Positions 6,050 through 30,145 of a stretch of DNA of 36,589 bases are shown here, piece by piece; the stretch's first letter is position 1, and each line of letters begins with the position of its first letter. The notes under the pieces are model-generated. The model ran no database searches. It worked only from the letters and a program-made list of their open reading frames with translations, and was not told where the DNA came from. The translations under genes were made by a program, and so were the position numbers. The stretch spans positions 1 through 36,589 of IMG/VR virus record IMGVR_UViG_3300009703_002552. One strand, written 5' to 3'. This DNA comes from a virus.

Positions 6050-7357
6050 TTAACCTATAAAGAACATTGGTGGGTCAGCGTCTCCAAAGCCAGGAGTACC
6101 GTCTAGCAATAACTGCTCAAGATCTTTTTTCTCTTCACGACCTTCATTTAGAAGATCAGCATCTAATGTACCTCCTCCAAATAGATTCATGCCTGAATAT
6201 TTACCACGAACTCTACCTATTGATATTTTTGATAAAGCTAAAGCGTATTGATATATCCACTGCTCATATATCATATCTTCAACTCGCTTTTCTAAATAGC
6301 AACCAATAATGCCATAGAACGTTTCAGCTTTAGGCTCTGGATACATTCTCAAATATTGATTATGCGGGTTAAATTCAAACGCTCTTCTTTGTGATAATAA
6401 TTTCTCTCTAGTATCTAAAAACTCTTTAACTGTGTACCAACTTACAAGATCAAACCCGTAATTGCCCATCGAATAACTAAAGTACGTTTGCTGAGCTAAA
6501 GTTTGCTCAATAGTAAACAAAGTGTTAACACCTGTCGTACTACCTTCCTCAAAATTGAACACATCAACAACTTTTCTATAATCATTAACAATAGAATCAA
6601 ACGCACCAAAAGCTAGCCCGCTTAATGTTGTAGTCGTAACAACTTCTAATTGATCACTTGCAATCGCTGTAGCGTTAATAAAATTATCAGCAGCAGTTGA
6701 ATATGGTACCATGTTAGAGTTTGGCGTAATCATTAGCCGCACAATCTCTTCATGTGCACCCGATAATTCAAAACTAAATGTACCTAAGTCTTCCTCTGAT
6801 GTATGTACAACGTTATACTCTGCAAAGCTACCTGTAGTCTCGCCCGGGTCACCAGAGACGTGCTGTACAGTCATTAACACTTTACGAACAGAAGAATGCT
6901 TCGTATCAGGATCTCTTAATTGAATAACAAACTCTGTAGGATCTAAAACGGTATCTGATACATCAATTTCATAGATTGGCTGAGCACCTGAACCTGCGGT
7001 TAATGTTGTCGTAACTGACCTAGGGTTAGATGCATCAACATTCAATTTAACAGATGTATATGTAGCGCTTAAATCAGGTGTTATTGAAAATAATTTATCT
7101 AATCGTATACCCTTACCTTTTTCATATAAGGTAGAATTAAACACAAGATATTCTGTTGAGTATCCTGCAAATTTAGTAAAGAATTCAACCGCTATCGTTA
7201 TATTTTCATATAATTGATTTTTATGGATTTCCAAATTTATCATTGGATATCCTAAAGACCAACTAATTCTATCCGCTAAGCGATCATACGCAGATACTAC
7301 CGAGTTCAGCGACGTACCGTAAAAATGTGATCCAGATCTAACTGCTTCAAGTGCCAT
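6050..7357 (-). CDS. Virion structural protein, probably neck/connector region
   Basis: 435 residues. The N-terminal segment LGYPMINLEIHKNQLYENI with AVEFFTKFAGY matches the pattern of phage neck/adaptor-type proteins (an LG-x-P helix-strand, then a helix ending in a hydrophobic-FF/YY motif). The C-terminal segment WIYQYALALSKISIGRVRG, then KYSGMNLFGGGTLDADLLNEG, is shared by many marine and other myovirus structural proteins. The middle (about 90-300) is Thr/Ser/Val-rich and probably beta-structured. It heads the head module: a TAAATA element lies 6 bases before the ATG and there is no Shine-Dalgarno sequence. A T4 gene number cannot be given with confidence; gp13-like is possible. Confidence 0.75.
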   Translation of the reverse strand: MALEAVRSGSHFYGTSLNSVVSAYDRLADRISWSLGYPMINLEIHKNQLYENITIAVEFFTKFAGYSTEYLVFNSTLYEKGKGIRLDKLFSITPDLSATYTSVKLNVDASNPRSVTTTLTAGSGAQPIYEIDVSDTVLDPTEFVIQLRDPDTKHSSVRKVLMTVQHVSGDPGETTGSFAEYNVVHTSEEDLGTFSFELSGAHEEIVRLMITPNSNMVPYSTAADNFINATAIASDQLEVVTTTTLSGLAFGAFDSIVNDYRKVVDVFNFEEGSTTGVNTLFTIEQTLAQQTYFSYSMGNYGFDLVSWYTVKEFLDTREKLLSQRRAFEFNPHNQYLRMYPEPKAETFYGIIGCYLEKRVEDMIYEQWIYQYALALSKISIGRVRGKYSGMNLFGGGTLDADLLNEGREEKKDLEQLLLDGTPGFGDADPPMFFIG

Positions 7358-7363
7358 TGGAAA

Positions 7364-7371
7364 TATTTATT
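7364..7371 (-). promoter_or_regulatory. Late-promoter-like AATAAATA, 6 bases before the structural gene
   Basis: Reads AATAAATA on the minus strand, followed by TTTCCA and the ATG at 7357. It overlaps the stop codon of the sulfotransferase gene. At this distance a T4-like late transcript would begin at or next to the start codon. Confidence 0.65.
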
Positions 7372-8188
7372 CAAAATCTAGTGTACAGAAGTCAGAATAT
7401 TTTTCTTTAATAGGTGTTAATTTATTAATATTTGTTATTTTCTCTAAAACCTCGCTGGTTGTTTGTTTAATAGTAGGCTTTGTATATATTTTATCAGTGT
7501 ATTCCCAATCTAATTTTGATTCATCTACCTCGAGAAATTTTAATATATCGTTTAATTGTTGTCTACGCCTATCTTCATTATCGCAATACAGATCTTCGTA
7601 TGCATATACAGCCATATCTACATTAACTCTTGAAATCTCATTATATGTTTTTGTTGCATCTTTATGCGCGGCTTTGAGAAACTTAACGAAAGCTCGATGA
7701 TCAATTACCACATTATCAAGCTTTTGCATAAACTGTGATCGGCAGTTTTCGAGATCATCATAACCGTTGTTAATAAGTTGCCATATACCAGTTTCTTTAG
7801 CAAGCATCATAGACAATATAGAGTCCCAAACATTTCTTCTATACATGAATATAACCGCGGCTTTATGCCGGTTTGCGGCTCTAACTAATCCGCTCGTAAT
7901 TCTAACTTGTGTACCGTTAATAATATGTTTTATACCATCTTTATGCTTAAAAAACTTACCCATAAAGTTAGTAGTATACTCTTGACTATAATCTGTAAAA
8001 TCTAGCGTACCGTGTGGCGTATAATGTACGCCATTAAACAAATGTTGATACCCTTGATATTGCTGTATTTTTACTCGAGATTTTAACCGACTAGGCTCGC
8101 GCCACATATCGTATCCGGCCGACACTAATATCTCACCTAATGTCGTAGTACCAGACCGAGCCATCCCGGCAATCAAGAACTTTTTCAT
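7367..8188 (-). CDS. PAPS-dependent sulfotransferase family protein
   Basis: 273 residues, a full-length single domain. The 5'-phosphosulfate-binding loop is MARSGTTTL at residues 9-17 after a hydrophobic strand (KKFLIAG). The 3'-phosphate-binding region is YRRNVWDSILSMM at about 116-128, with Arg117/Arg118 and Ser126. The family moves sulfate from PAPS to a hydroxyl or amine, usually on a glycan, lipid or protein tyrosine. It lies next to a set of glycosyltransferases, so a sugar is the likely acceptor. Its own TAAATA element lies 10 bases upstream. It is transcribed towards the head genes but starts its own unit, because a + strand gene separates it from the glycosyltransferase operon. Confidence 0.88.
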   Translation of the reverse strand: MKKFLIAGMARSGTTTLGEILVSAGYDMWREPSRLKSRVKIQQYQGYQHLFNGVHYTPHGTLDFTDYSQEYTTNFMGKFFKHKDGIKHIINGTQVRITSGLVRAANRHKAAVIFMYRRNVWDSILSMMLAKETGIWQLINNGYDDLENCRSQFMQKLDNVVIDHRAFVKFLKAAHKDATKTYNEISRVNVDMAVYAYEDLYCDNEDRRRQQLNDILKFLEVDESKLDWEYTDKIYTKPTIKQTTSEVLEKITNINKLTPIKEKYSDFCTLDFE

Positions 8189-8198
8189 GAACTCTATA

Positions 8199-8206
8199 TA
8201 TTTAGC
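8199..8206 (-). promoter_or_regulatory. Late-promoter-like GCTAAATA before the sulfotransferase gene
   Basis: GCTAAATA on the minus strand with 10 bases (TATAGAGTTC on the minus strand) to the ATG at 8188. It lies in a 55-base divergent gap shared with the + gene at 8244. Confidence 0.5.
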
Positions 8207-8228
8207 CGTTGATATTAATAATCAAGAT

Positions 8229-8236
8229 TATAAATT
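8229..8236 (+). promoter_or_regulatory. Late-promoter-like TATAAATT before the small + strand gene
   Basis: TATAAATT on the + strand, 7 of 8 bases of the T4 late consensus, with 7 bases to the ATG at 8244. It diverges from the element at 8199-8206. Confidence 0.6.
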
Positions 8237-8243
8237 GTAATGT

Positions 8244-8468
8244 ATGAGCGAAGAAATAGATCAAAAAATCGCGAGAGTAGAAGAGAAGTTAGCAAAATTT
8301 CGAGTCAAGGCTACAGCGGCTAGAGATAAAGTTGTTGAGCGTGAGGAGCGATTAAAGCTACAAGTATGGCGTGAGCGCGCTGAAAAGTGGGAACAAAAAG
8401 TTGCACAAGCCGAGCATCAATTAAGAAGGTTAGAGGTTAAAAAGGCTAAAGCAGGTAATAACGATTAA
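8244..8468 (+). CDS. Small charged coiled-coil protein
   Basis: 74 residues, almost wholly helical and highly charged, with heptad-like spacing (IDQKIARVEEKLAKF, then REERLKLQVWRERAEKWEQKV). No membrane segment, signal peptide or recognised domain. It is an isolated + strand gene inside the minus-strand block. Its last four bases overlap the end of the 2-kb pyruvyltransferase fusion gene on the other strand. A TATAAATT element 7 bases before the ATG supports expression and this start; no Shine-Dalgarno sequence is present. Function unknown. Confidence 0.65.
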   Translation: MSEEIDQKIARVEEKLAKFRVKATAARDKVVEREERLKLQVWRERAEKWEQKVAQAEHQLRRLEVKKAKAGNND

Positions 8469-10513
8469 CTTGTTTGATAACTTTCTTTTGCTTTGAGCCA
8501 TTCTTCACTGTCGTCACACCACATAACAACGAGACCGTTAGGTAGCGTCGCAGTATCCGTATCCTCAACTTTAACTACATCCTTGATGTTTACAAAGTAA
8601 ACCTTATCGTTATACCAAATATCTTTCTTTTTCCCAGCATGTACTAAAGCCATGCCGGTTTCATATTCTCGGTCTGCTTTTCTCTGCTGTTCCGCCAACC
8701 GTTTAATTTCATCTTCGCGATTAGTATCAATCACCTTCATTCTCTTTTCATGCTCCTTAGCATATCGCTTGTAATATGTTCTATATGTGCTTATAGGATG
8801 TTCACCAAATGGAGCTCCGGGCATAACCCATATGAAATCTCTACCGCCCTCTGGGTCTAGAGTTTTAGATGGCTTGGTAACTCGACGCCATTCTCTCATA
8901 CACAAACCTTGATTCATACAGTGAGATGCAAACGCTTGGTGATGGCATGATTCATATATATCTACATCACTATTAGTATGCAGTCTTCTGAAAAGAGAAT
9001 CATACATCATATCAAACTGTATATTACCGCTCCAAAAATGTCCAAACTCAGCTGCAAGCCGACCATTACGTACAGTTAACGTCGGGAAGAATGTCATACC
9101 ATATTCCGTACGCGTATATTCTTTCCGTTCAAATCTACTTATTTTAGCATGTATTGTATCTAACTGACACCTCTTAGGGAAGAACATAACATCAAATCTA
9201 GTCTTTATAACTAGATCATATTCATTATTAGACTCTTCACCAACAATCTCTTGACTCGGCAAAATAATATTTTTACCTGATTTTAGATAAGCAGACCGCT
9301 CTGCACTAATATGCTGTGACATAGCTAAAAAGTTGCTCGACATAATTTGTTCTGCAGGTACTTTTACTTTGTAATAATCTACAAGATCTCTAAGAACATT
9401 CTTTGACTCAACCAATATACGTTTTGGTTTATATTTTCTAATTAAATCCGCTCTTAATTCTTTTATATCATATTCTGTTTCATATTCAGACACGTGCCCA
9501 GTATCTATTCTACCGTCTTGATAATTTCTTGGTGTTGATGTTGTATTCCAAGCATGTATAAAAATATCATACTCCCATCTAGAGTCTAATTGTTTGAAAT
9601 ACTTCTCAATGCTTTTATATGTATGCTTATACTGCCGCGGCTCTCCAGATATACAAATCGCTGCTCTTAGTTTCTTCTTTTTAGACTTGATATTGATATC
9701 TTTAAGTTTGAATTTTTCTTTAGATTCCATAAAATCAAATAATTTATTATATTCGCAAATATCTATAGGCTTGTTTAATTGTTCTATTAATTGCTCTGGT
9801 GTTTCAGGTACCGTGATATTTACATTAGCGTGTTTAATAATTCCAAGAACTTTGTCGCAATTACCTCTATATGCTATAAAGGGTATTCTCAATTTACATG
9901 CTGCAATAACTTCATGATGGAGACCTGTAATAAGAAGCTTAGTTGTTGATAAGCTCTCTAGATAATCATCCCATTCCCATAAACTGTAATCCTTTATACT
10001 ATTCCTCTTATATGATTTGAGATGATCCTTAAAGTTAATCGTAGGACTGAAAAAGAAACTACCCACAGTAATATGCTTTGGTTTTTTTGTCTTTACATCA
10101 ACAGATAAATGATATGCTAGATCAAATACTATTTTAGCATCAGGTCTATGTTGTTTTATTTCGTTATAACTTACTGCATCCCGAACAGTAACACAATCAA
10201 TATCATTTTTCAATATATCAATCATTACCGGGTCAGTATTATTTTGCCAAACTGTGTTAATTAATGATGATTTTATCCCTAGCTGCTTTGCTTTTCGGCA
10301 TATCTTAAGTTTGCCACCACCTATAGTATTGTCAGACGATTTGTCGTGCAACGAACCTTCGCCGTTAACAATAACATAATCCGCATCTTCAAGCTTACCG
10401 GTTTCATTATCTATATATTCGTGACCGGCTTCATGAATTATATTTCTAATATACCTTGTTACAGCAGCGCTACCGCTATGACAAGAATGGTTACCATATA
10501 CAAAAATTTTCAT
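8465..10513 (-). CDS. Polysaccharide pyruvyltransferase-like / glycosyltransferase-like fusion
   Basis: 682 residues with two domains. Residues 1-260 resemble the polysaccharide pyruvyltransferase family: a Rossmann-type start (MKIFVYGNHS), ADYVIVNGEGSLHD at about 44-57, VTVRDAVSYN at 108-117 and TGLHHEVIAACKLRIPFIAY at 196-215. A Lys-rich linker (272-282) leads to a second domain starting LRAAICISGEPRQYKHTY, with YDIFIHAW (315-322) and EYDLVIKTRFDVMFF (431-445). This is a pattern seen in uncharacterised viral and bacterial glycosyltransferase-like proteins with a GT-A-like fold. The C-terminal 60 residues are a separate charged segment. It probably builds or caps a glycan, for example with pyruvate ketals. 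It is the last gene of the coupled operon and overlaps the methyltransferase by 4 bases. The fusion is unusual. Confidence 0.75.
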   Translation of the reverse strand: MKIFVYGNHSCHSGSAAVTRYIRNIIHEAGHEYIDNETGKLEDADYVIVNGEGSLHDKSSDNTIGGGKLKICRKAKQLGIKSSLINTVWQNNTDPVMIDILKNDIDCVTVRDAVSYNEIKQHRPDAKIVFDLAYHLSVDVKTKKPKHITVGSFFFSPTINFKDHLKSYKRNSIKDYSLWEWDDYLESLSTTKLLITGLHHEVIAACKLRIPFIAYRGNCDKVLGIIKHANVNITVPETPEQLIEQLNKPIDICEYNKLFDFMESKEKFKLKDINIKSKKKKLRAAICISGEPRQYKHTYKSIEKYFKQLDSRWEYDIFIHAWNTTSTPRNYQDGRIDTGHVSEYETEYDIKELRADLIRKYKPKRILVESKNVLRDLVDYYKVKVPAEQIMSSNFLAMSQHISAERSAYLKSGKNIILPSQEIVGEESNNEYDLVIKTRFDVMFFPKRCQLDTIHAKISRFERKEYTRTEYGMTFFPTLTVRNGRLAAEFGHFWSGNIQFDMMYDSLFRRLHTNSDVDIYESCHHQAFASHCMNQGLCMREWRRVTKPSKTLDPEGGRDFIWVMPGAPFGEHPISTYRTYYKRYAKEHEKRMKVIDTNREDEIKRLAEQQRKADREYETGMALVHAGKKKDIWYNDKVYFVNIKDVVKVEDTDTATLPNGLVVMWCDDSEEWLKAKESYQTS

Positions 10514-11094
10514 AATTCAATAATAAACATTCTCGGGCTCTCTTCAAATCTAGCATTACCGTAATTATTAAACTTATCCAACCACCAATCAAGCCCGTGT
10601 CTCGTTTGATGTAGCTCGCCTACTATGTCTCTATGCGATGTGCTCTGACCCGGATGTGTATCAGTAACATAATGCACTTTATGAGCCATAACAGTATTAC
10701 ATACTCTACACATTTCAGATAGAATAATATCAACGTCTGCTTCAACGACATGCTCAAAGAAATCAAAGCTTGTAACCATATCAACACTATCGTCTAATGG
10801 TATATCATGCGCACCGGATTTAATAAATTTGACGCGGTTTGTTTGAGGTACTATTGGATCCATAGCAATATCTAAACCATATATTGTTTCGAGATCTGTA
10901 TTTTCCTCAAACCATTTACAGAGCAACCCTCTACCCGTACCAACATCTAATACCGACTCCACCTCATACTCATCAATTAAATCATTAATAAAATCAACTC
11001 TACCTTTAGCGTGAAACGATCTGCCGTACTCAGTATTTTTATTGAGCCACTCATATTTGACTCTTTCTTGTTCTCTTAAGATTTCTACATTCAT
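10510..11094 (-). CDS. Class I SAM-dependent methyltransferase
   Basis: 194 residues. Motif I is ESVLDVGTGRGLLCKWF at about residues 46-62. IYGLDIAMD (motif II, an acidic residue after the second strand) and the post-motif MVTSFDFFEHV follow, then a His-rich stretch (HKVHYVTDTHPGQSTSHRD). The layout is that of small-molecule methyltransferases of the Methyltransf_11/23 type, not DNA methyltransferases; no DPPY or PC motif is present. It overlaps both neighbours by 4 bases (ATGA), so it is coupled to the radical SAM gene upstream and the pyruvyltransferase fusion downstream. A sugar or other small precursor of the surface glycan is a likely substrate. Confidence 0.85.
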   Translation of the reverse strand: MNVEILREQERVKYEWLNKNTEYGRSFHAKGRVDFINDLIDEYEVESVLDVGTGRGLLCKWFEENTDLETIYGLDIAMDPIVPQTNRVKFIKSGAHDIPLDDSVDMVTSFDFFEHVVEADVDIILSEMCRVCNTVMAHKVHYVTDTHPGQSTSHRDIVGELHQTRHGLDWWLDKFNNYGNARFEESPRMFIIEL

Positions 11095-12146
11095 GATACT
11101 AACTCCTTAAATTGTGTAACATTACCAAGATCAACAATATCGTCGTCTAATATTGGATCAGATAATACCTTTATAAAATCGTCATATTCAGGGTGATTTT
11201 TACTATACACAGCTCTATACATGTATTGCTCATTGGTCCATGTTCCCCAATTTACAATTAATGAAAAGTAGACTTTATCGAGTTTTAACCGCTTACCTAT
11301 TCTAACTACTTCAACCATCTCTTTATAATTTGCCTGCTGAACAACAAAGTCAATTCTCAGTTCTTTTATAAAACCTTCCTGCCTTAATCTCGACAAAAAC
11401 TCCATGTTAGTTTGTAATTGATCCCAATTACCTCCACGCCTTGTTATATTATAGGTTTCTTCAGTACCAGCGTCATATGAGACAATAACTGTGTTAATGT
11501 TATTATGTAACTTATGCATTTTGTTCCAGTACTTTTCTGTAAACATAACTCCATTTGTCTGTAAGTTGATATTAATATTAGGGCACCGTTCACAATCTAC
11601 ATTAAATAAAAGTTCGCGGAATAATTTAGAACCGAAAGGATCACCCGACCCGGTTATATTGACTGTGCAATTTTTCGTATGAGGTGTATAAAATAAATCC
11701 TTTACGATTCGTTCTTGAATACGTCTTCGCTGCTCATATGCATTACCTTCCGTAAAGTTTATTTTATTAACTCTACAACTAGGGCATTGTAAATTACAAG
11801 ACTCGTCATAACATAGATTATAAAAATCAGGCATTAAATCATCTACAATACGCTCTTTAACAATACGCTGCATTCTAGGGCCTTCAACTTTATCTTTATC
11901 AGGCAAATCTCCATTTTGTATATGCGGACACAATGTACTGTTACAAAATCTAAAAGTACCGTCATGAATAGTTTCACGAATTTCTTTTACCGCGTCTGAG
12001 TTAAAAACATCTTTAACAGAAGTGGTACGATCAATCCTGCCCGCGTAATATGGTAACCATGTATAACAACATAACGATACATCGCCAGACGGATGAACCT
12101 CAAAGTGCTCGAAAGGTTTTCTGCAAAATTTATTTTCTATATTCAT
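11091..12146 (-). CDS. Radical SAM enzyme with an N-terminal SPASM-like cysteine domain
   Basis: 351 residues. The 4Fe-4S radical SAM motif is CNLQCPSC with Cys117, Cys121 and Cys124, followed by ITGSGDPF (the GGE-like SAM-binding segment) and LQTNGVMF. Before it, residues 7-75 hold a second cysteine set: FCRKPFEHFEVHPSGDVSLCC (Cys8, Cys26, Cys27) and FCNSTLCPH (Cys68, Cys73). This resembles a SPASM/auxiliary-cluster domain, normally C-terminal in this superfamily. The protein probably carries two clusters and performs a radical modification of a peptide, sugar or lipid; the substrate is unknown. It overlaps its neighbours on both sides by 4 bases, inside a run of glycosyltransferase and methyltransferase genes. 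Confidence 0.88.
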   Translation of the reverse strand: MNIENKFCRKPFEHFEVHPSGDVSLCCYTWLPYYAGRIDRTTSVKDVFNSDAVKEIRETIHDGTFRFCNSTLCPHIQNGDLPDKDKVEGPRMQRIVKERIVDDLMPDFYNLCYDESCNLQCPSCRVNKINFTEGNAYEQRRRIQERIVKDLFYTPHTKNCTVNITGSGDPFGSKLFRELLFNVDCERCPNININLQTNGVMFTEKYWNKMHKLHNNINTVIVSYDAGTEETYNITRRGGNWDQLQTNMEFLSRLRQEGFIKELRIDFVVQQANYKEMVEVVRIGKRLKLDKVYFSLIVNWGTWTNEQYMYRAVYSKNHPEYDDFIKVLSDPILDDDIVDLGNVTQFKELVS

Positions 12147-14404
12147 AGGCTTGTATATATCTCCGATTCTTGTACTGACTTTCTAAAATATGATCGAGTA
12201 AGCTTATCTCGTACATGCCATTCTTTTAAGTAATTGTGCGCGTCGAGTATACACTTATCGTCGTTAATTTTATTAGCTGCCTCTTCTAGAGAATTGAAAT
12301 ACAACGGATATTCCGGGCCTAGATATTCAACTACAGCAGGTATAGGATTAGCGGCAATAGGTGTCGTGCGAGCAATACATTCAATAATTGCGTTATTAGC
12401 GCTCGACTCATATAGATCTAAAAATACAACATTTTGAGATAATGTAATATCATACTCATCATTAGACAATCTATCAATTGTTTTAGTATTACTAAAATGT
12501 TCATTTGGTTCTATGTTATGAACTTCGCGCTCTTTATTGAGTAAAGCTTCAATTGCATTTTTAGGTCTTTCTGTTGTATATGGAATTAGTCTCCATTTTT
12601 CAAACCGTTGGTTTATTGGCAGCATATATATTGAATTCATTTTTCTCAACCAATAACCAATGTTAATAACCTTTTTCTCGTTATTACTAACATATCTATT
12701 ATAATCAAAAAGCATGTGAGGTGTCTCAGTCGGATGATACAAAACAGAAACAGGCATGCCTGTTAGCTGGTTAATGTAGTCAGCGTGATGTTTTGATAAT
12801 GCGAAGAGACCCCCACATGCTTTTAAGCTTTGTTGAAAATTATCAGATGATATAATATTTTCAATCGAAAATTGATTGAAGAACCAATCTGGTATATTTT
12901 GCGGGTTATGAAAAATACCTACCCATGGCTCGTCATATACAAGCTTTTCATGCTCTGGACGCCATGCAAAATTGTTTTCTAAAAACCCGTCAAAAAGAAC
13001 ACCGCGCTCATTATGGAGTGGTATTAGCGCCTCCATAGCATACTTCCAACCACTGCGGTGCGAATTAAAAATTGTTTGACCTCTAAGGTTAATTTTACCA
13101 TCGGGGTTAGTTATACCAGGGGTTAGCATCTTTTGTGTATCCCAGTCGTCGCGGGAATATTTTCCCGTAACGATTTGCAACTTTGCTGGTCTATCATGTA
13201 AGACGTGACGTATAGCTTTTCGAATAGCTTGGTGCTCACCTCGCTCTGACTTGTATAGAAAGTCTAAGACATAGTCTCTATGTACATCTTGAGAAGCTGA
13301 GGTTTTATCATCTCTACCTTCCGGTAATCCGAATATATGGCAGTGAAAGCTTTTATGATTTTCAATGTGATATTCATTTCTCCAAAACCCATGATTATGC
13401 TCCGGACCAAAAATATCTAGATTATATTTCTCAGAAAAATAATTTGTAGCCTCTTGCTCACAGAAGGTGGATCTGTTGAGGTATAAGTCTCTCCAGTATT
13501 CTGTAAAACCCTTGTCAGACGTGAATATATACCCAGCATTATATATGCCATACTCTTTATGAGCACCCCAGTAATGAGGCGACATAACTAAATTACTATG
13601 CATCAAATCATTGATTTCATCTACAATAATTATATCGCTATCTAAGAACAATGTATTCGGTTCATTCTCCAAAGCGAAATCAATCGCTCTCATTTTGTGA
13701 TATATTCGATCTTGCTTATGTAAATTATTATCAGAGCGCTCAAAAGCAGCTTTATGTTCATTTTGTATTTTTGTGAACGTCTCGTCTGTTGCTGAACATT
13801 CAAAATATATATCAAATGTATCAATATAGTTCTTAATATATTGTTTAGTTTCAGGATCACATACAACGAAGATAGGCTCATCATGAAAACATCTAATACT
13901 GTATATTAGAATAACTGCTTCACGGCTCACCTCTTTGGTAGCCATAAAACAAAAACTTGTTATTTTTTCTCCACTAAATGATATATCATTATTATGAACG
14001 ATTTTTAATAAGTCATTATCTGTTGTAAGATATTCTTTTGCATAATTTAGACATGCATTAATAAATGTTGTCTTATCGTTTATTCTATTAATAGATACAT
14101 GTAAGAAATTATTAGCTGCTGTTTTATGTTTCGATATTCTCTTATACGTTCCATCTACACTACCGTTATCAATTACAATTAAATTCCATATACATCCTGT
14201 CATACTCGCTTCTATATGCTCTAATTTGCGTTTGACAGTATCGTCGTTATTTTGAAAATATGTTACGACATTTATTACATGCTTCTCAGGGCTACCCCCA
14301 ATTGTTTTTCGCAGAATAGCAATATTTTTAGGTTCGTATACATCGTCAGCTATCGGGCGCAACCCGACAAATCTGTCATTCAACTTTAGCTTAGGTTGAT
14401 TCAT
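12143..14404 (-). CDS. Three-domain glycosyltransferase (GT2-like, GT-A-like, GT-B-like)
   Basis: 753 residues, apparently three transferase domains in one chain. Residues 43-145 look like a family-2 start: VINVVTYFQNNDDTV, then LIVIDNGSVDGT (75-86) and KIVHNNDISF with NND at 138-140 in the place of DxD. Residues 150-380 look like a nucleotide-sugar GT-A domain: AIDFALENEPNTLFLDSDII, with DSD at 255-257, and a later HCHIFGLPEGR segment. Residues about 495-740 look like a GT-B/GT4 domain: GLFALSKHHADYINQLTG, PVSVLYHPTE, then SSANNAIIECIARTTPIAAN with the glutamate of the EX7E region, and NPIPAVVEYLG. It could add several sugars in sequence. It is coupled to the radical SAM gene (4-base overlap) and abuts the gene at 14405. 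Cytoplasmic; no membrane segment. Confidence 0.83.
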   Translation of the reverse strand: MNQPKLKLNDRFVGLRPIADDVYEPKNIAILRKTIGGSPEKHVINVVTYFQNNDDTVKRKLEHIEASMTGCIWNLIVIDNGSVDGTYKRISKHKTAANNFLHVSINRINDKTTFINACLNYAKEYLTTDNDLLKIVHNNDISFSGEKITSFCFMATKEVSREAVILIYSIRCFHDEPIFVVCDPETKQYIKNYIDTFDIYFECSATDETFTKIQNEHKAAFERSDNNLHKQDRIYHKMRAIDFALENEPNTLFLDSDIIIVDEINDLMHSNLVMSPHYWGAHKEYGIYNAGYIFTSDKGFTEYWRDLYLNRSTFCEQEATNYFSEKYNLDIFGPEHNHGFWRNEYHIENHKSFHCHIFGLPEGRDDKTSASQDVHRDYVLDFLYKSERGEHQAIRKAIRHVLHDRPAKLQIVTGKYSRDDWDTQKMLTPGITNPDGKINLRGQTIFNSHRSGWKYAMEALIPLHNERGVLFDGFLENNFAWRPEHEKLVYDEPWVGIFHNPQNIPDWFFNQFSIENIISSDNFQQSLKACGGLFALSKHHADYINQLTGMPVSVLYHPTETPHMLFDYNRYVSNNEKKVINIGYWLRKMNSIYMLPINQRFEKWRLIPYTTERPKNAIEALLNKEREVHNIEPNEHFSNTKTIDRLSNDEYDITLSQNVVFLDLYESSANNAIIECIARTTPIAANPIPAVVEYLGPEYPLYFNSLEEAANKINDDKCILDAHNYLKEWHVRDKLTRSYFRKSVQESEIYTSL

Positions 14405-14674
14405 TTATGGTAGCTTTGTATTACTCGTCGACCCTGTCCACTCTGAGCTTGCACTAGTTATTTCTTCAATTTCGTTTGAAGTATACTCCCATAGCCCGAC
14501 TGTGTCTTGAGTAATAAAAAACACAAATTCAGGCTGTTCGCCAATATACTTGAGTATGAATTTTTTACCATCACATGAATAGCGTACTGTTGACGGTCCG
14601 TTATCGAGAACGTCATTCCACATAACCTTGCTTAAATGCTCAATATCTAAAATAATGTATTTTACTTCTTCCAT
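14405..14674 (-). CDS. Small protein of unknown function in the fibre-glycan operon
   Basis: 89 residues, acidic, with no cysteine cluster, membrane segment or known motif other than a possible beta-rich core (STVRYSCDGKKFILKYIG, then EFVFFITQDTVGLWEYT). It lies between the lectin-like fibre protein (1-base gap) and the three-domain glycosyltransferase (no gap), so it is translated from the same message. Small genes in this place after a fibre gene are often fibre chaperones or accessory proteins, but nothing in the sequence proves this. Confidence 0.75.
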   Translation of the reverse strand: MEEVKYIILDIEHLSKVMWNDVLDNGPSTVRYSCDGKKFILKYIGEQPEFVFFITQDTVGLWEYTSNEIEEITSASSEWTGSTSNTKLP

Positions 14675-14675
14675 A

Positions 14676-17600
14676 TTACCATCCTGGTAACCCTGTAAGG
14701 TCTACTGGATAACCGCTTAATGGGTTCGTATTGCAAATTGCAAGAGCCCCTAAATTGTTTAATATATTCTCCTTTGTTTGTCCCGGCGGTATGCCAAACG
14801 TATCTAATTCCCAATGAATACCAAATTGTTTATGGTCATAGCCACCATATCTAAATGTGATAGAAGAAACAGGAGCAACCTGTGAGTTGATAAAACCGTG
14901 ATCAATACCACCTGGATGTACGGCAGATAAACTTACAGCTGATATTGAAAATGATCTAGTACCATGTACTAATGCGTTAGACCACATGTACCATTGCATT
15001 ATAGCTAAACTGGATATACTAAAGTCTGTAAAGTCTGGATCCTTTATCCATCGAGAAGATAATGTCTCAACAACCCCTGCTACATTTTTAATCAATGTAA
15101 ATTTAGGCTTATTGTCGTCATACCGTTCATACGTAACAACAGGATAATAAGTTGTATCACTGTCACTCGAGGTAGGACCTAACTTAATCTCAAGAACGTC
15201 ACCAGACAAAGCATCTGCTGAAACCATAATATTTTGAGTTTCGTTTGTTACACTACCTTGATATGTATGGGTTGGTAAAGAGTTCTTTTTCAGAGACGCT
15301 TGCATTGAGAATTTGTCTCCAGACTCTTCTGCTTTTACTGGCGCTTCAAATCTATATATACCGTCTGATGTTACTGTATATGTAAATGTTAATACATCTA
15401 CATCGTTTTTCAAACACCTAAACGATGTATCAGACATATTTGTATAAAATTCAGCATTAGCAGTAACGCTTGGTACAAAGTTGAATATATGCTCAACTTC
15501 AATTACAGGTGCACCCGATACAGTTTCAACTATTACATCTTTTGACGATGTAATGTTTGCATAAAACTGTTCACCGAACCGTGTACCGCGAGGTGTTACT
15601 GGTGGGATATGGCCAAGATATGGCCCAGGCTTAGCTAAGTTAGTCGCTCTATCACCTTTCTTATAATGAGGTATAAACGGTTGATCTAATGTAATCGTAT
15701 CTTTGAAAACGTTTTTAAGATCAGCATATTGATCCGGCCACCAATCACCGCGCGACGCTAAAGTTACTATTGTCGGTTTCTCATCAAATGGAAATGTTAT
15801 TGAAGGAGTGGCAACGCAAAGCTCATCCATTCGACTAGGTGTACCTCCAGAGTGCAATGTATTATATTGGAACGGATCTGTATCATGTGTAAGGTTATCG
15901 CCGTATGTACCGCCCGGTGAATATGACCCGATATGAAAATCGCCTCTTCCACCTGATACAAACATTAACCTCATAGCATGAGGTATTACACCTGAATATA
16001 CATCCTCTTCAAACCCGTTAATATACAGCTTACCAGCTACTGCTAAGTTACCGTCCTCTCTAGCGCTGTACCAATTTATCTCTGTAAATCCTTGCGTGAA
16101 AGGCTTATCTCCCGGATTGTGTTTTCGACCTACTAAAACCAATCTCCAAAATGTGTGTGCACCAGTTGATACAGAGTCCCACCTAGCGATCAAATTAGGT
16201 TCGCTCGAATTACCTTGCCCGCCTGCGTCTGTAGTAAATGTTTGATTAGGAGTTAAATTATATGTTTGATTCTCGTTATTACATAGCCAGTTTAACGGTA
16301 ACTCTGCTGAATTGTTTATGTTTGGTCTATCGTTAAACGCATCACCGTTAGCTCTAGTAAATGTTACATTGTTCCAATTAACATTATCATCCGACCACTG
16401 AACTTGAAACCACCCACCGTTATCTTGCCCGGACCGGCTTACCAGTCCAATAGCTCCAATCTTTGTAGGCGTACCGGTATCCAACTTTATCCAAGTCTTA
16501 GCATTATCGAATGCATCGTTTTCATCTTCAAGATCATAAATGTTAAAGGCCTGCGTTGACCTGTCAAACGGATTTGAATCTTCTATGTTATCAGAAATCT
16601 TTGTTTCATCAATTTTTATATTATTAGACGACCAATTAGGGTGTGGATATGCTATATCTTGAGAAACATCATCAGCTGTTGCTGACACTTTCCATACAAT
16701 ACTAAAATTATACCAAGTATCAGCATCAATATTTGTTTTTGACTCTAAGATTTTTTTATTGCCAAAATAATAGCATAGTTTTGTACCAGCTGATGGTGCC
16801 CATAATAGTGACCATGCTGGATCGTCGCTGAAATCAACATGAGGACCACCAATAGCGTTTTTAGTATAGAACGGTTCTTCAACATATGTCCAAATAGCTG
16901 AGTATGGATTATTTTCCGTACCATGACCAATAATTGAATCTTGCAAATTATCAGTACTAAATACAACTCCTTTTGCATCTACATAATTACCGCTTTGAAG
17001 ATCAAAAAAGAAGCTTGGGTTATCTAATATATACCCTGATGGCATACTAGTCCTTGTATAGTCTCCAGGTCCATCTGTATGAGGTGTTGAGAAATCTAAT
17101 GCTAATAATCCACCTGATACTGTTCTACCCCAATTAGCTAATGGCATAGCGCCTGCTAATCCTTCATAATTACCCCATCTATTGGCAATATCCTTACCTG
17201 TATTAATACCTCCACCGGAAGCAGGTCTAAACCAGCCGCTAAACACAAAACTATCAAAATAATTATATGCATAGTTTTCGGGGTTTACCGGTACACCGTA
17301 TCCAGGATCGGTTGCTGTAAGAAAAACGCTTAAGCCATCAGATTGAAAATATGATGCTGGATATCCAGCTGATGTCCAAAACCAAGATGTACCTAAAGCA
17401 TATGGTTGCATGCAATATACACCGTTACGTACCCATATGGTTCCAGGAGAAACATATCCTGGTTCTTTTTGTTTACGGGTCAAATATGTATGATAATCAG
17501 TACCACCCATATCAGTGTTAATTTGACCTTCCGTACCTAACCAAGGGCCCGATGGATCAGACCCGCATACTGTACTAACAATACTATAATCTTTGACTAA

Positions 17601-17957
17601 TTGGTCTGTTTTTGATACAAATGTTTCATTACCAAATTCGTCAACTTCTGAAACAACATTAACAGACGAAACAAGTTCGAACCCAACAAGAGCAGGTCCT
17701 ACTTTAGTAGTTGTTGTTGATGTAATACTAGAGCCAGGCGCTGAGGATGATTGATATGTTGTCTGATAAGCGAACACCTCTCCCCCGTAAGGAATAGAGG
17801 GATCCAATATAACAGGATGATTCGGGTAACTTCTATCACCCGGCTGATCCGGTACAAACTTAAATACCAGCCCATCGGCACCACTTAATGCTCCAAATGT
17901 TGGTACATTTGAAACGTAGGCTGGACCGGCTACAGTAACTGAGCCAAGAGTACTCAT
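14676..17957 (-). CDS. Large virion protein with LamG-like and discoidin-like modules
   Basis: 1093 residues. Residues about 236-730 look like a concanavalin/LamG-type lectin sandwich (FDSFVFSGWFRPAS; DTWYNFSIVWKVS at 413-425; LAVAGKLYINGFEEDVYSG at 638-656; DFHIGSY; RMDELCVATP). Between WKVS and LYING lies an inserted module of about 195 residues with the pattern of a discoidin/F5-8C domain: DDAFDNAKTWIKLD-type start (about 480-492), IGAIGLVSRSG, WFQVQWSDDNVNWNNVTF and HTFWRLVLVG. The C-terminal 300 residues are beta-rich and Ser/Thr-rich. Such proteins bind carbohydrate on the host surface or form part of the tail-fibre network. It sits between the giant fibre gene and the sugar-modifying genes. 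The gene starts with no Shine-Dalgarno sequence, and a clear promoter was not found in the 51-base gap. Confidence 0.8.
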   Translation of the reverse strand: MSTLGSVTVAGPAYVSNVPTFGALSGADGLVFKFVPDQPGDRSYPNHPVILDPSIPYGGEVFAYQTTYQSSSAPGSSITSTTTTKVGPALVGFELVSSVNVVSEVDEFGNETFVSKTDQLVKDYSIVSTVCGSDPSGPWLGTEGQINTDMGGTDYHTYLTRKQKEPGYVSPGTIWVRNGVYCMQPYALGTSWFWTSAGYPASYFQSDGLSVFLTATDPGYGVPVNPENYAYNYFDSFVFSGWFRPASGGGINTGKDIANRWGNYEGLAGAMPLANWGRTVSGGLLALDFSTPHTDGPGDYTRTSMPSGYILDNPSFFFDLQSGNYVDAKGVVFSTDNLQDSIIGHGTENNPYSAIWTYVEEPFYTKNAIGGPHVDFSDDPAWSLLWAPSAGTKLCYYFGNKKILESKTNIDADTWYNFSIVWKVSATADDVSQDIAYPHPNWSSNNIKIDETKISDNIEDSNPFDRSTQAFNIYDLEDENDAFDNAKTWIKLDTGTPTKIGAIGLVSRSGQDNGGWFQVQWSDDNVNWNNVTFTRANGDAFNDRPNINNSAELPLNWLCNNENQTYNLTPNQTFTTDAGGQGNSSEPNLIARWDSVSTGAHTFWRLVLVGRKHNPGDKPFTQGFTEINWYSAREDGNLAVAGKLYINGFEEDVYSGVIPHAMRLMFVSGGRGDFHIGSYSPGGTYGDNLTHDTDPFQYNTLHSGGTPSRMDELCVATPSITFPFDEKPTIVTLASRGDWWPDQYADLKNVFKDTITLDQPFIPHYKKGDRATNLAKPGPYLGHIPPVTPRGTRFGEQFYANITSSKDVIVETVSGAPVIEVEHIFNFVPSVTANAEFYTNMSDTSFRCLKNDVDVLTFTYTVTSDGIYRFEAPVKAEESGDKFSMQASLKKNSLPTHTYQGSVTNETQNIMVSADALSGDVLEIKLGPTSSDSDTTYYPVVTYERYDDNKPKFTLIKNVAGVVETLSSRWIKDPDFTDFSISSLAIMQWYMWSNALVHGTRSFSISAVSLSAVHPGGIDHGFINSQVAPVSSITFRYGGYDHKQFGIHWELDTFGIPPGQTKENILNNLGALAICNTNPLSGYPVDLTGLPGW

Positions 17958-30137: not shown

Positions 30138-30145
30138 TATTTATG
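30138..30145 (-). promoter_or_regulatory. Late-promoter-like CATAAATA before the giant fibre gene
   Basis: CATAAATA on the minus strand, 7 of 8 bases of the T4 late consensus, then TTCTTA and the ATG at 30131. It is the only visible signal in the 29-base gap after the endolysin-like gene. Confidence 0.7.

Follow-up and report, generated by a model that had tools for sequence, protein, structure and literature searches.

Operons of the Gtr type, which act in O-antigen conversion, comprise GtrA, GtrB and GtrC, with a membrane flippase and a bactoprenol glycosyltransferase. The fibre island of pelagimyophages holds glycosyltransferases, GT8 being the commonest, together with radical SAM cassettes, and has been read as serving O-chain modification; this host recognition cluster lies between VrlC and the neck gene gp14 (PMC7029224). 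In mycobacteriophages, phage-encoded glycosyltransferases modify virion proteins (Freeman et al. 2023, as cited in passages of PMC12619734 and PMC10877033), and the excerpted account of mimivirus describes pyruvylated, O-methylated glycans on its fibrils, the machinery for which is thought to be virus-encoded (PMC8456856). The stretch analysed here, called the window, is the whole of IMG/VR record IMGVR_UViG_3300009703_002552 (36,589 nt), a 36.6-kb environmental fragment of a T4-like virus. Directly behind its fibre genes lies a cassette of five enzyme genes for glycan-type chemistry, built on a lectin-orf89-glycosyltransferase (GT) block that moves between phages as one piece. With about even confidence, we read the cassette as a late, fibre-cognate glycan module that would decorate the fibre or lectin of the phage itself.

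The enzyme genes ST, PPT_GT, MT, rSAM and GT3 are all on the minus strand at 7367-14404, where a sequence-only reading of the window had placed them. That reading had extended the enzyme interval to 14674, and this last part (14405-14674) is orf89, by its family context a small fibre partner and not an enzyme. The order on the minus strand is GIANT, LEC, orf89, GT3, rSAM, MT, PPT_GT, a 276-bp gap, ST, the head-tail adaptor, orf186, gp4, gp21, gp22 and gp23. As had been claimed, four genes (GT3, rSAM, MT and PPT_GT) are joined by three 4-base ATGA overlaps, at 12143-12146, 11091-11094 and 10510-10513, and the chain continues without a gap to the lectin-like gene, via orf89, which abuts GT3 and is 1 base away from LEC. 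The sulfotransferase had been counted in the same block; its family call holds, at a marginal Pfam score, and the gene itself is a separate unit outside the overlapping chain, with its own TAAATA and likely its own transcription start. The features are listed below; relatives carry L numbers, the close ones all being environmental fragments, and block identities are from pairwise alignments.

30138-30143, minus strand: TAAATA, late-promoter-like, 12 nt before the GIANT start; the same site precedes the equivalent fibre in L009 and L257
18009-30131, minus strand: GIANT, 4040-aa fibre-type protein by composition and repeats; L255 has a 2834-aa homologue in the same gene order
14676-17957, minus strand: LEC, 1093-aa lectin-like virion protein with a weak F5/F8 type C match
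14405-14674, minus strand: orf89, putative small fibre-partner protein, from the position of its family behind lectin or fibre open reading frames (ORFs)
12143-14404, minus strand: GT3, glycosyltransferase, from its predicted structure, N-terminal segment and invariant DSD
11091-12146, minus strand: rSAM, radical SAM enzyme with an N-terminal twitch/SPASM-type auxiliary cluster domain, from Pfam and its cysteines
10510-11094, minus strand: MT, class I SAM methyltransferase (PF08241; DVGTG at 50)
8465-10513, minus strand: PPT_GT, with an N-terminal polysaccharide pyruvyltransferase family domain (PF04230)
8244-8468, plus strand: antisense 74-aa ORF between PPT_GT and ST, 70% identical in L008
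8199-8204, minus strand: TAAATA, late-promoter-like, 16 nt before the ST start; also before ST in L008
7367-8188, minus strand: ST, sulfotransferase family (PF00685; RSGTT loop, RNxxDxxxS)
7364-7369, minus strand: TAAATA, late-promoter-like, 12 nt before the adaptor gene, taken as the 3' boundary of the cassette from its position
6050-7357, minus strand: head-tail adaptor, the conserved downstream border of the slot, from its PHROG match and relatives

The arrangement of the cassette is beyond chance, because the order orf89-GT3-rSAM recurs in L088, L089, L090 and L092, with identities of 40-42% over full-length GT3 and 57-61% for rSAM. The slot of these contigs, in which gp23 was found neither by protein nor by profile search, runs from a fibre gene through a lectin-type ORF, orf89, GT3 and rSAM to sulfotransferase- or methyltransferase-type genes or a second rSAM; in L088, one sulfotransferase-like gene stands between GT3 and rSAM. 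The relative L008, whose gp23 is 98% identical, has the end of PPT_GT (57%), the antisense ORF, ST (59%) and the adaptor (87%) in the same order, with ST directly before the adaptor. The proposed search of related phages for the block beside the fibre gene recovered lectin-orf89-GT in L009, L257, L260 and L266, where a tail-fibre-type gene, a lectin-type ORF, orf89 and a glycosyltransferase are followed by none or few variable genes and then by the adaptor. The slot of L257 holds the glycosyltransferase only, that of L260 one further gene, and that of L266 a pyruvyltransferase family gene and others. In the window, the block is extended by rSAM, MT and PPT_GT and by ST as a separate unit.

Between L009 and L266, the lectin (86% identical), orf89 (92%) and the GT domain (98%) are far closer than the adaptor (62%) and gp4 (69%), and because of this disparity the block is taken to have been exchanged between phages as one piece. 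In L359 the lectin is 83% identical to that of L009, the downstream genes are different and gp23 was not found; the claim of mobility is based on L359 and on the one clean pair. Related phages keep the slot and the gene order and pass the module on as a whole, and the tie to the fibre genes is stronger than had been supposed. In L009 (6421-8043; compare L256:10497-11144), a sequence with a sulfotransferase-like P-loop, recognised by eye, stands in place of the GT-B part of the enzyme, and the fibre-linked core enzyme would thus undergo domain shuffling. At two distinct sites of a 157-kb contig, G013 (L253/L254; gp23 76% identical), sugar/methyltransferase clusters adjoin fibre genes; one of the two includes an N_Twi_rSAM-like gene.

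The orf89 family occurs in at least 120 viral stretches and lies almost always directly behind a fibre or lectin-like ORF, often in repeated fibre-orf89 pairs, the label 'fibre' being given to these neighbours by composition and checked by family for a subset. Most of these loci are without any glycosyltransferase, and in the cultured Synechococcus phage S-SKS1 orf89 follows a LamG protein. A LamG-type lectin ORF (LamG where tested) also occupies the position of LEC in relatives. The N-terminal segment of GT3 (residues 1-35) is present in 13 other distinct proteins, every one of which is encoded directly behind orf89; its carriers are the T4-like phages L009, L257, L260 and L266 and contigs of 49-158 kb without detectable gp23. 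A tentative and on balance doubtful extension of the fibre reading is that orf89 and this segment form a docking pair, which would recruit the glycosyltransferase to the lectin or fibre during assembly, so that the receptor-binding apparatus carries a phage-made sulfated, methylated, pyruvylated and radical-SAM-changed glycan, exchanged together with the fibre.

GIANT is rich in serine and threonine (26.6% together) and asparagine (10.7%) and has no cysteine; it is likely both the glycan acceptor and the first gene of the transcription unit. The protein itself has no PHROG match, and the fibres of relatives match tail fibre/baseplate families. About 120 W-centred motifs run along it, with a dominant spacing of 24 residues.

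An exact T4 late promoter, TATAAATA, is absent from the window. Of the 25 minus-strand genes, 9 have TAAATA, which we take to be a T4-type late promoter here, 10-16 nt ahead of the start, as against about 0.1 expected (25 x 7 x 19/36589); the motif is not enriched in number in the window, and the signal is its position at gene starts. No TAAATA stands 10-16 nt before the starts of LEC, orf89, GT3, rSAM, MT or PPT_GT. Since the motif precedes GIANT and ST but is missing before the genes between them, the cassette would be read together with the fibre, and ST separately. Similarly, L009 and L257 have TAAATA before the fibre and the adaptor and none before the lectin, orf89 or the glycosyltransferase, and L008 has it before ST and the adaptor.

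Among the enzymes, the methyltransferase and radical SAM calls of the sequence-only reading stand above the family cut-offs: MT matches PF08241 with 46.5 bits (cut-off 21.2) and rSAM matches PF04055 (Radical_SAM) with 44.3 bits (cut-off 29.5), with CxxxCxxC at 117-124. The N-terminal domain of rSAM is of the SPASM type (PF13186, 35.2 bits against 21.5) and contains four invariant cysteines, C8, C26, C68 and C73. The NCBIfam model NF033640 (N_Twi_rSAM) shares with rSAM the N-terminal twitch domain and a near full-length alignment (5-343), at a score (76.3 bits) well under its curated cut-off of 170, which makes rSAM rather a putative sister group than a member of that family. A sequence search of solved structures with rSAM matched only viperin-type and other radical SAM core domains, and the same search with GT3 and PPT_GT gave no matches. 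ST exceeds the cut-off of PF00685 marginally (22.5 against 22 bits), and its RSGTT and RNxxDxxxS motifs for binding 3'-phosphoadenosine 5'-phosphosulfate were recognised by eye.

The supposed pyruvyltransferase-glycosyltransferase fusion holds in its N-terminal half, where PF04230 (PS_pyruv_trans) scores 27.8 bits against a cut-off of 25.3 and the activity is predicted. Its C-terminal half matches only phrog_13607, of unknown function, with RFDV at 439; the predicted structure is poor (predicted local distance difference test, pLDDT, 50), and a glycosyltransferase is not shown there. The tail of PPT_GT (610-674) is common, at 38-53%, to the C-terminus of the second rSAM protein in other cassettes (L089:10322-11704, L090:10344-11702 and L092:10351-11682). 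It may be a short mobile tail passed between enzymes that are otherwise unrelated, and it possibly serves in docking.

GT3 had been described as a three-domain glycosyltransferase, and two of the domains are borne out by its predicted structure (pLDDT 82.6): a GT-A domain at about 147-385 and a GT-B domain at 434-753. The latter is matched over its whole length by SenB (Z 21.0), HepE (19.9) and PimA (19.3) and is predicted to have a GT4-like GT-B fold. The middle domain has an invariant DxD (D255-S-D257) and appears GT8-like (GT8/GT24-like) in the model; the Foldseek list for the whole protein includes the UGGT catalytic domain, LARGE1 and GlyE. The third domain is a degenerate, partial GT2-like stretch at 36-140, poorly modelled, with a GT2 Pfam match of 18 bits (cut-off 23.3) over half of the profile. 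Among viral folds, GT3 comes closest to giant-virus proteins annotated as WcaK-like pyruvyltransferase or glycosyltransferase, four of the best five having 21-26% identity.

Glycan-type chemistry, as originally supposed, is well founded, because bacterial relatives of rSAM lie among GT2, GT4 and GT8 glycosyltransferases and nucleoside diphosphate (NDP)-sugar epimerases. The viral relatives neighbour other radical SAM proteins, GT4 enzymes, sulfotransferases and cytidylyltransferases, and the GT-B domain of GT3 is also present at 26 of 79 viral rSAM loci. These neighbourhoods support glycan work and not a particular reaction. About 500 viral stretches encode an rSAM relative and the pelagimyophage cassettes are published (PMC7029224); the view that a radical SAM enzyme is unusual in such a set is thus not upheld. 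DNA modification by the cassette glycosyltransferases was set aside, the block being tied to fibre genes. In a Bdellovibrio metagenome-assembled genome (L226:5300-10119), a distant radical SAM relative is flanked on both sides by flagellin genes, a setting reminiscent of filament glycosylation loci.

If the cassette acts on the phage's own fibre, fibre and enzymes would be made late in infection from one transcript. In the cytoplasm GT3, possibly guided to the fibre by its N-terminal segment and orf89, would then attach sugars in GT8-like and GT4-like steps to the fibre or lectin, rich in Ser, Thr and Asn. The sugars would be altered by rSAM and MT, PPT_GT would add pyruvate and/or a further sugar, ST would add sulfate, and the virion would leave with an acidic, methylated glycan on its fibre. 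The fibre is favoured as the target because of the late transcription pattern, the orf89-bound segment of GT3 and the Ser/Thr-rich fibre; the orf89-GT core was never away from fibres in the records seen. Several points weigh on the other side. The virion glycan is a prediction from genes, and the segment of GT3 could be a mark of shared ancestry instead of a docking part. Genes for GT-B, rSAM and ST do occur away from fibres in other phages, for instance after the terminase and portal genes of L099, which is in part what the sequence-only reading had named as counting against it. Since the window is a fragment, membrane partners could be encoded elsewhere. Fibre and enzymes would also be inherited together if the enzymes acted on the receptor bound by the fibre, and similar islands have been read as modifying the host O-chain (PMC7029224).

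Modification of the host surface is a possible, though less likely, explanation: the enzymes would alter lipopolysaccharide, capsule or another glycan recognised by the adjacent lectin fibre, so that sibling phages are kept from superinfecting and progeny from adhering to debris. Fibre linkage would keep receptor specificity and receptor modification matched; the tight lectin linkage fits both targets alike, as does the module transfer between L009 and L266. This is the published view of the pelagimyophage island, with its GT8 enzymes and radical SAM cassettes (PMC7029224), and the bacterial rSAM relatives lie in clusters of the surface-polysaccharide type. However, the cassette lacks a membrane-bound step (flippase, bactoprenol glycosyltransferase or polymerase), and none of its proteins has a membrane segment (no 19-residue stretch with a hydrophobicity above 1.6), which argues against a Gtr-type system complete in itself and not against use of a host pathway. 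Moreover, a late, fibre-linked transcription pattern is late for exclusion, and a special N-terminal segment tied to orf89 is unnecessary in an enzyme of the host surface.

It is quite improbable that rSAM, MT, ST and PPT_GT are cargo gained and lost singly in a recombination-prone slot and acting separately on host metabolites or several glycans. The content of the slot does vary strongly (L257, L260 and L266), and ST is set apart from the other genes by the antisense ORF and by a promoter-like motif of its own; nevertheless, the orf89-GT core is constant, GT-B domain and rSAM co-occur at a third of viral rSAM loci as counted above, and L008 keeps the PPT_GT end, antisense ORF and ST in order. 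That rSAM modifies a peptide, namely the fibre backbone, with the other enzymes glycosylating the same protein, is very improbable, since the twitch/SPASM-type domain, the similarity to peptide and metalloenzyme maturase models, the adjoining fibre genes and the many SPASM/twitch enzymes that act on peptides stand against relatives placed, in bacteria and phages, among glycosyltransferases, sugar epimerases and sulfotransferases, with no RiPP-type (ribosomally synthesized and post-translationally modified peptide) family prominent among the neighbours.

PHROGs recognised gp23, gp21, gp4 and the head-tail adaptor in the window. The lineage is uncultured, its gp23 reaching at best about 34% identity to those of cultured phages. 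The gp23 search in cultured phages gave 2492 records, whereas tblastn of ST, PPT_GT, rSAM and GT3 gave none, and close relatives of these four are thus not found there at tblastn sensitivity; a near-DNA match to the window was also not found in cultured phages. The antisense ORF, coiled-coil-like and filling the PPT_GT-ST gap, is at the same place in L008 and is probably a real gene. A fatty acid hydroxylase family gene (PF04116; 34930-35544) adjoins fibre-type genes, is 86% identical in L255 and would be a virus-encoded lipid-modifying enzyme. Behind gp23, on the opposite strand (168-1632, plus), lie kinase and GTP cyclohydrolase/QueF-like genes that are lineage-wide (L009, L011-L016).

The cassette resembles the Gtr operons in its phage glycosyltransferases and possible host-surface target and differs from them in having no membrane flippase or bactoprenol transferase, in a window that is a fragment. 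With mimivirus, as far as the excerpt of PMC8456856 goes, it shares predicted pyruvyl and methyl chemistry and the giant-virus likeness of GT3, whereas mimivirus is a eukaryotic giant virus with polysaccharide on its fibrils, for which that excerpt mentions neither sulfation nor a radical SAM enzyme. In the cited passages on mycobacteriophages, capsid and tail tube glycans are shown by experiment; here a glycosyltransferase gene is linked to virion genes across relatives, the fibre is the target proposed from genes, and the cassette has extra sugar-modifying enzymes. Also close is the host recognition cluster of pelagimyophages and cyanomyophages (PMC7029224), likewise T4-like, with a hypervariable island of tail fibres, GT8-rich glycosyltransferases and radical SAM genes inside the structural region, and the window contains such a variable island. 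That marine T4-like phages have sugar genes in their fibre islands has therefore been described before, and the claim of an undescribed system does not hold for the general kind. Within an incomplete coverage of the literature, no earlier account was found of a conserved core of lectin, orf89 and GT, of its movement as one unit, of the promoter pattern or of a set that combines sulfate, pyruvate, methyl and radical SAM enzymes. The fibre islands of abundant aquatic phages are full of genes for glycosyltransferases and radical SAM proteins, so far interpreted, without test, as host-surface tools. The constant order of lectin, orf89 and GT, the pattern of late promoters and the transfer as a single module open the other possibility, that a phage glycosylates its own fibre, to direct test. 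Should that be the case, recognition of the host would rest on a glycan made by the phage besides the sequence of the fibre protein. VrlC and gp14 were not recognised in the window; compared with the host recognition cluster, the island here lies between fibre genes and the head-tail adaptor/gp4, before the adaptor-gp4-gp21 block of a distant lineage, and it shows a conserved lectin-orf89-GT core, with ST as a unit of its own.

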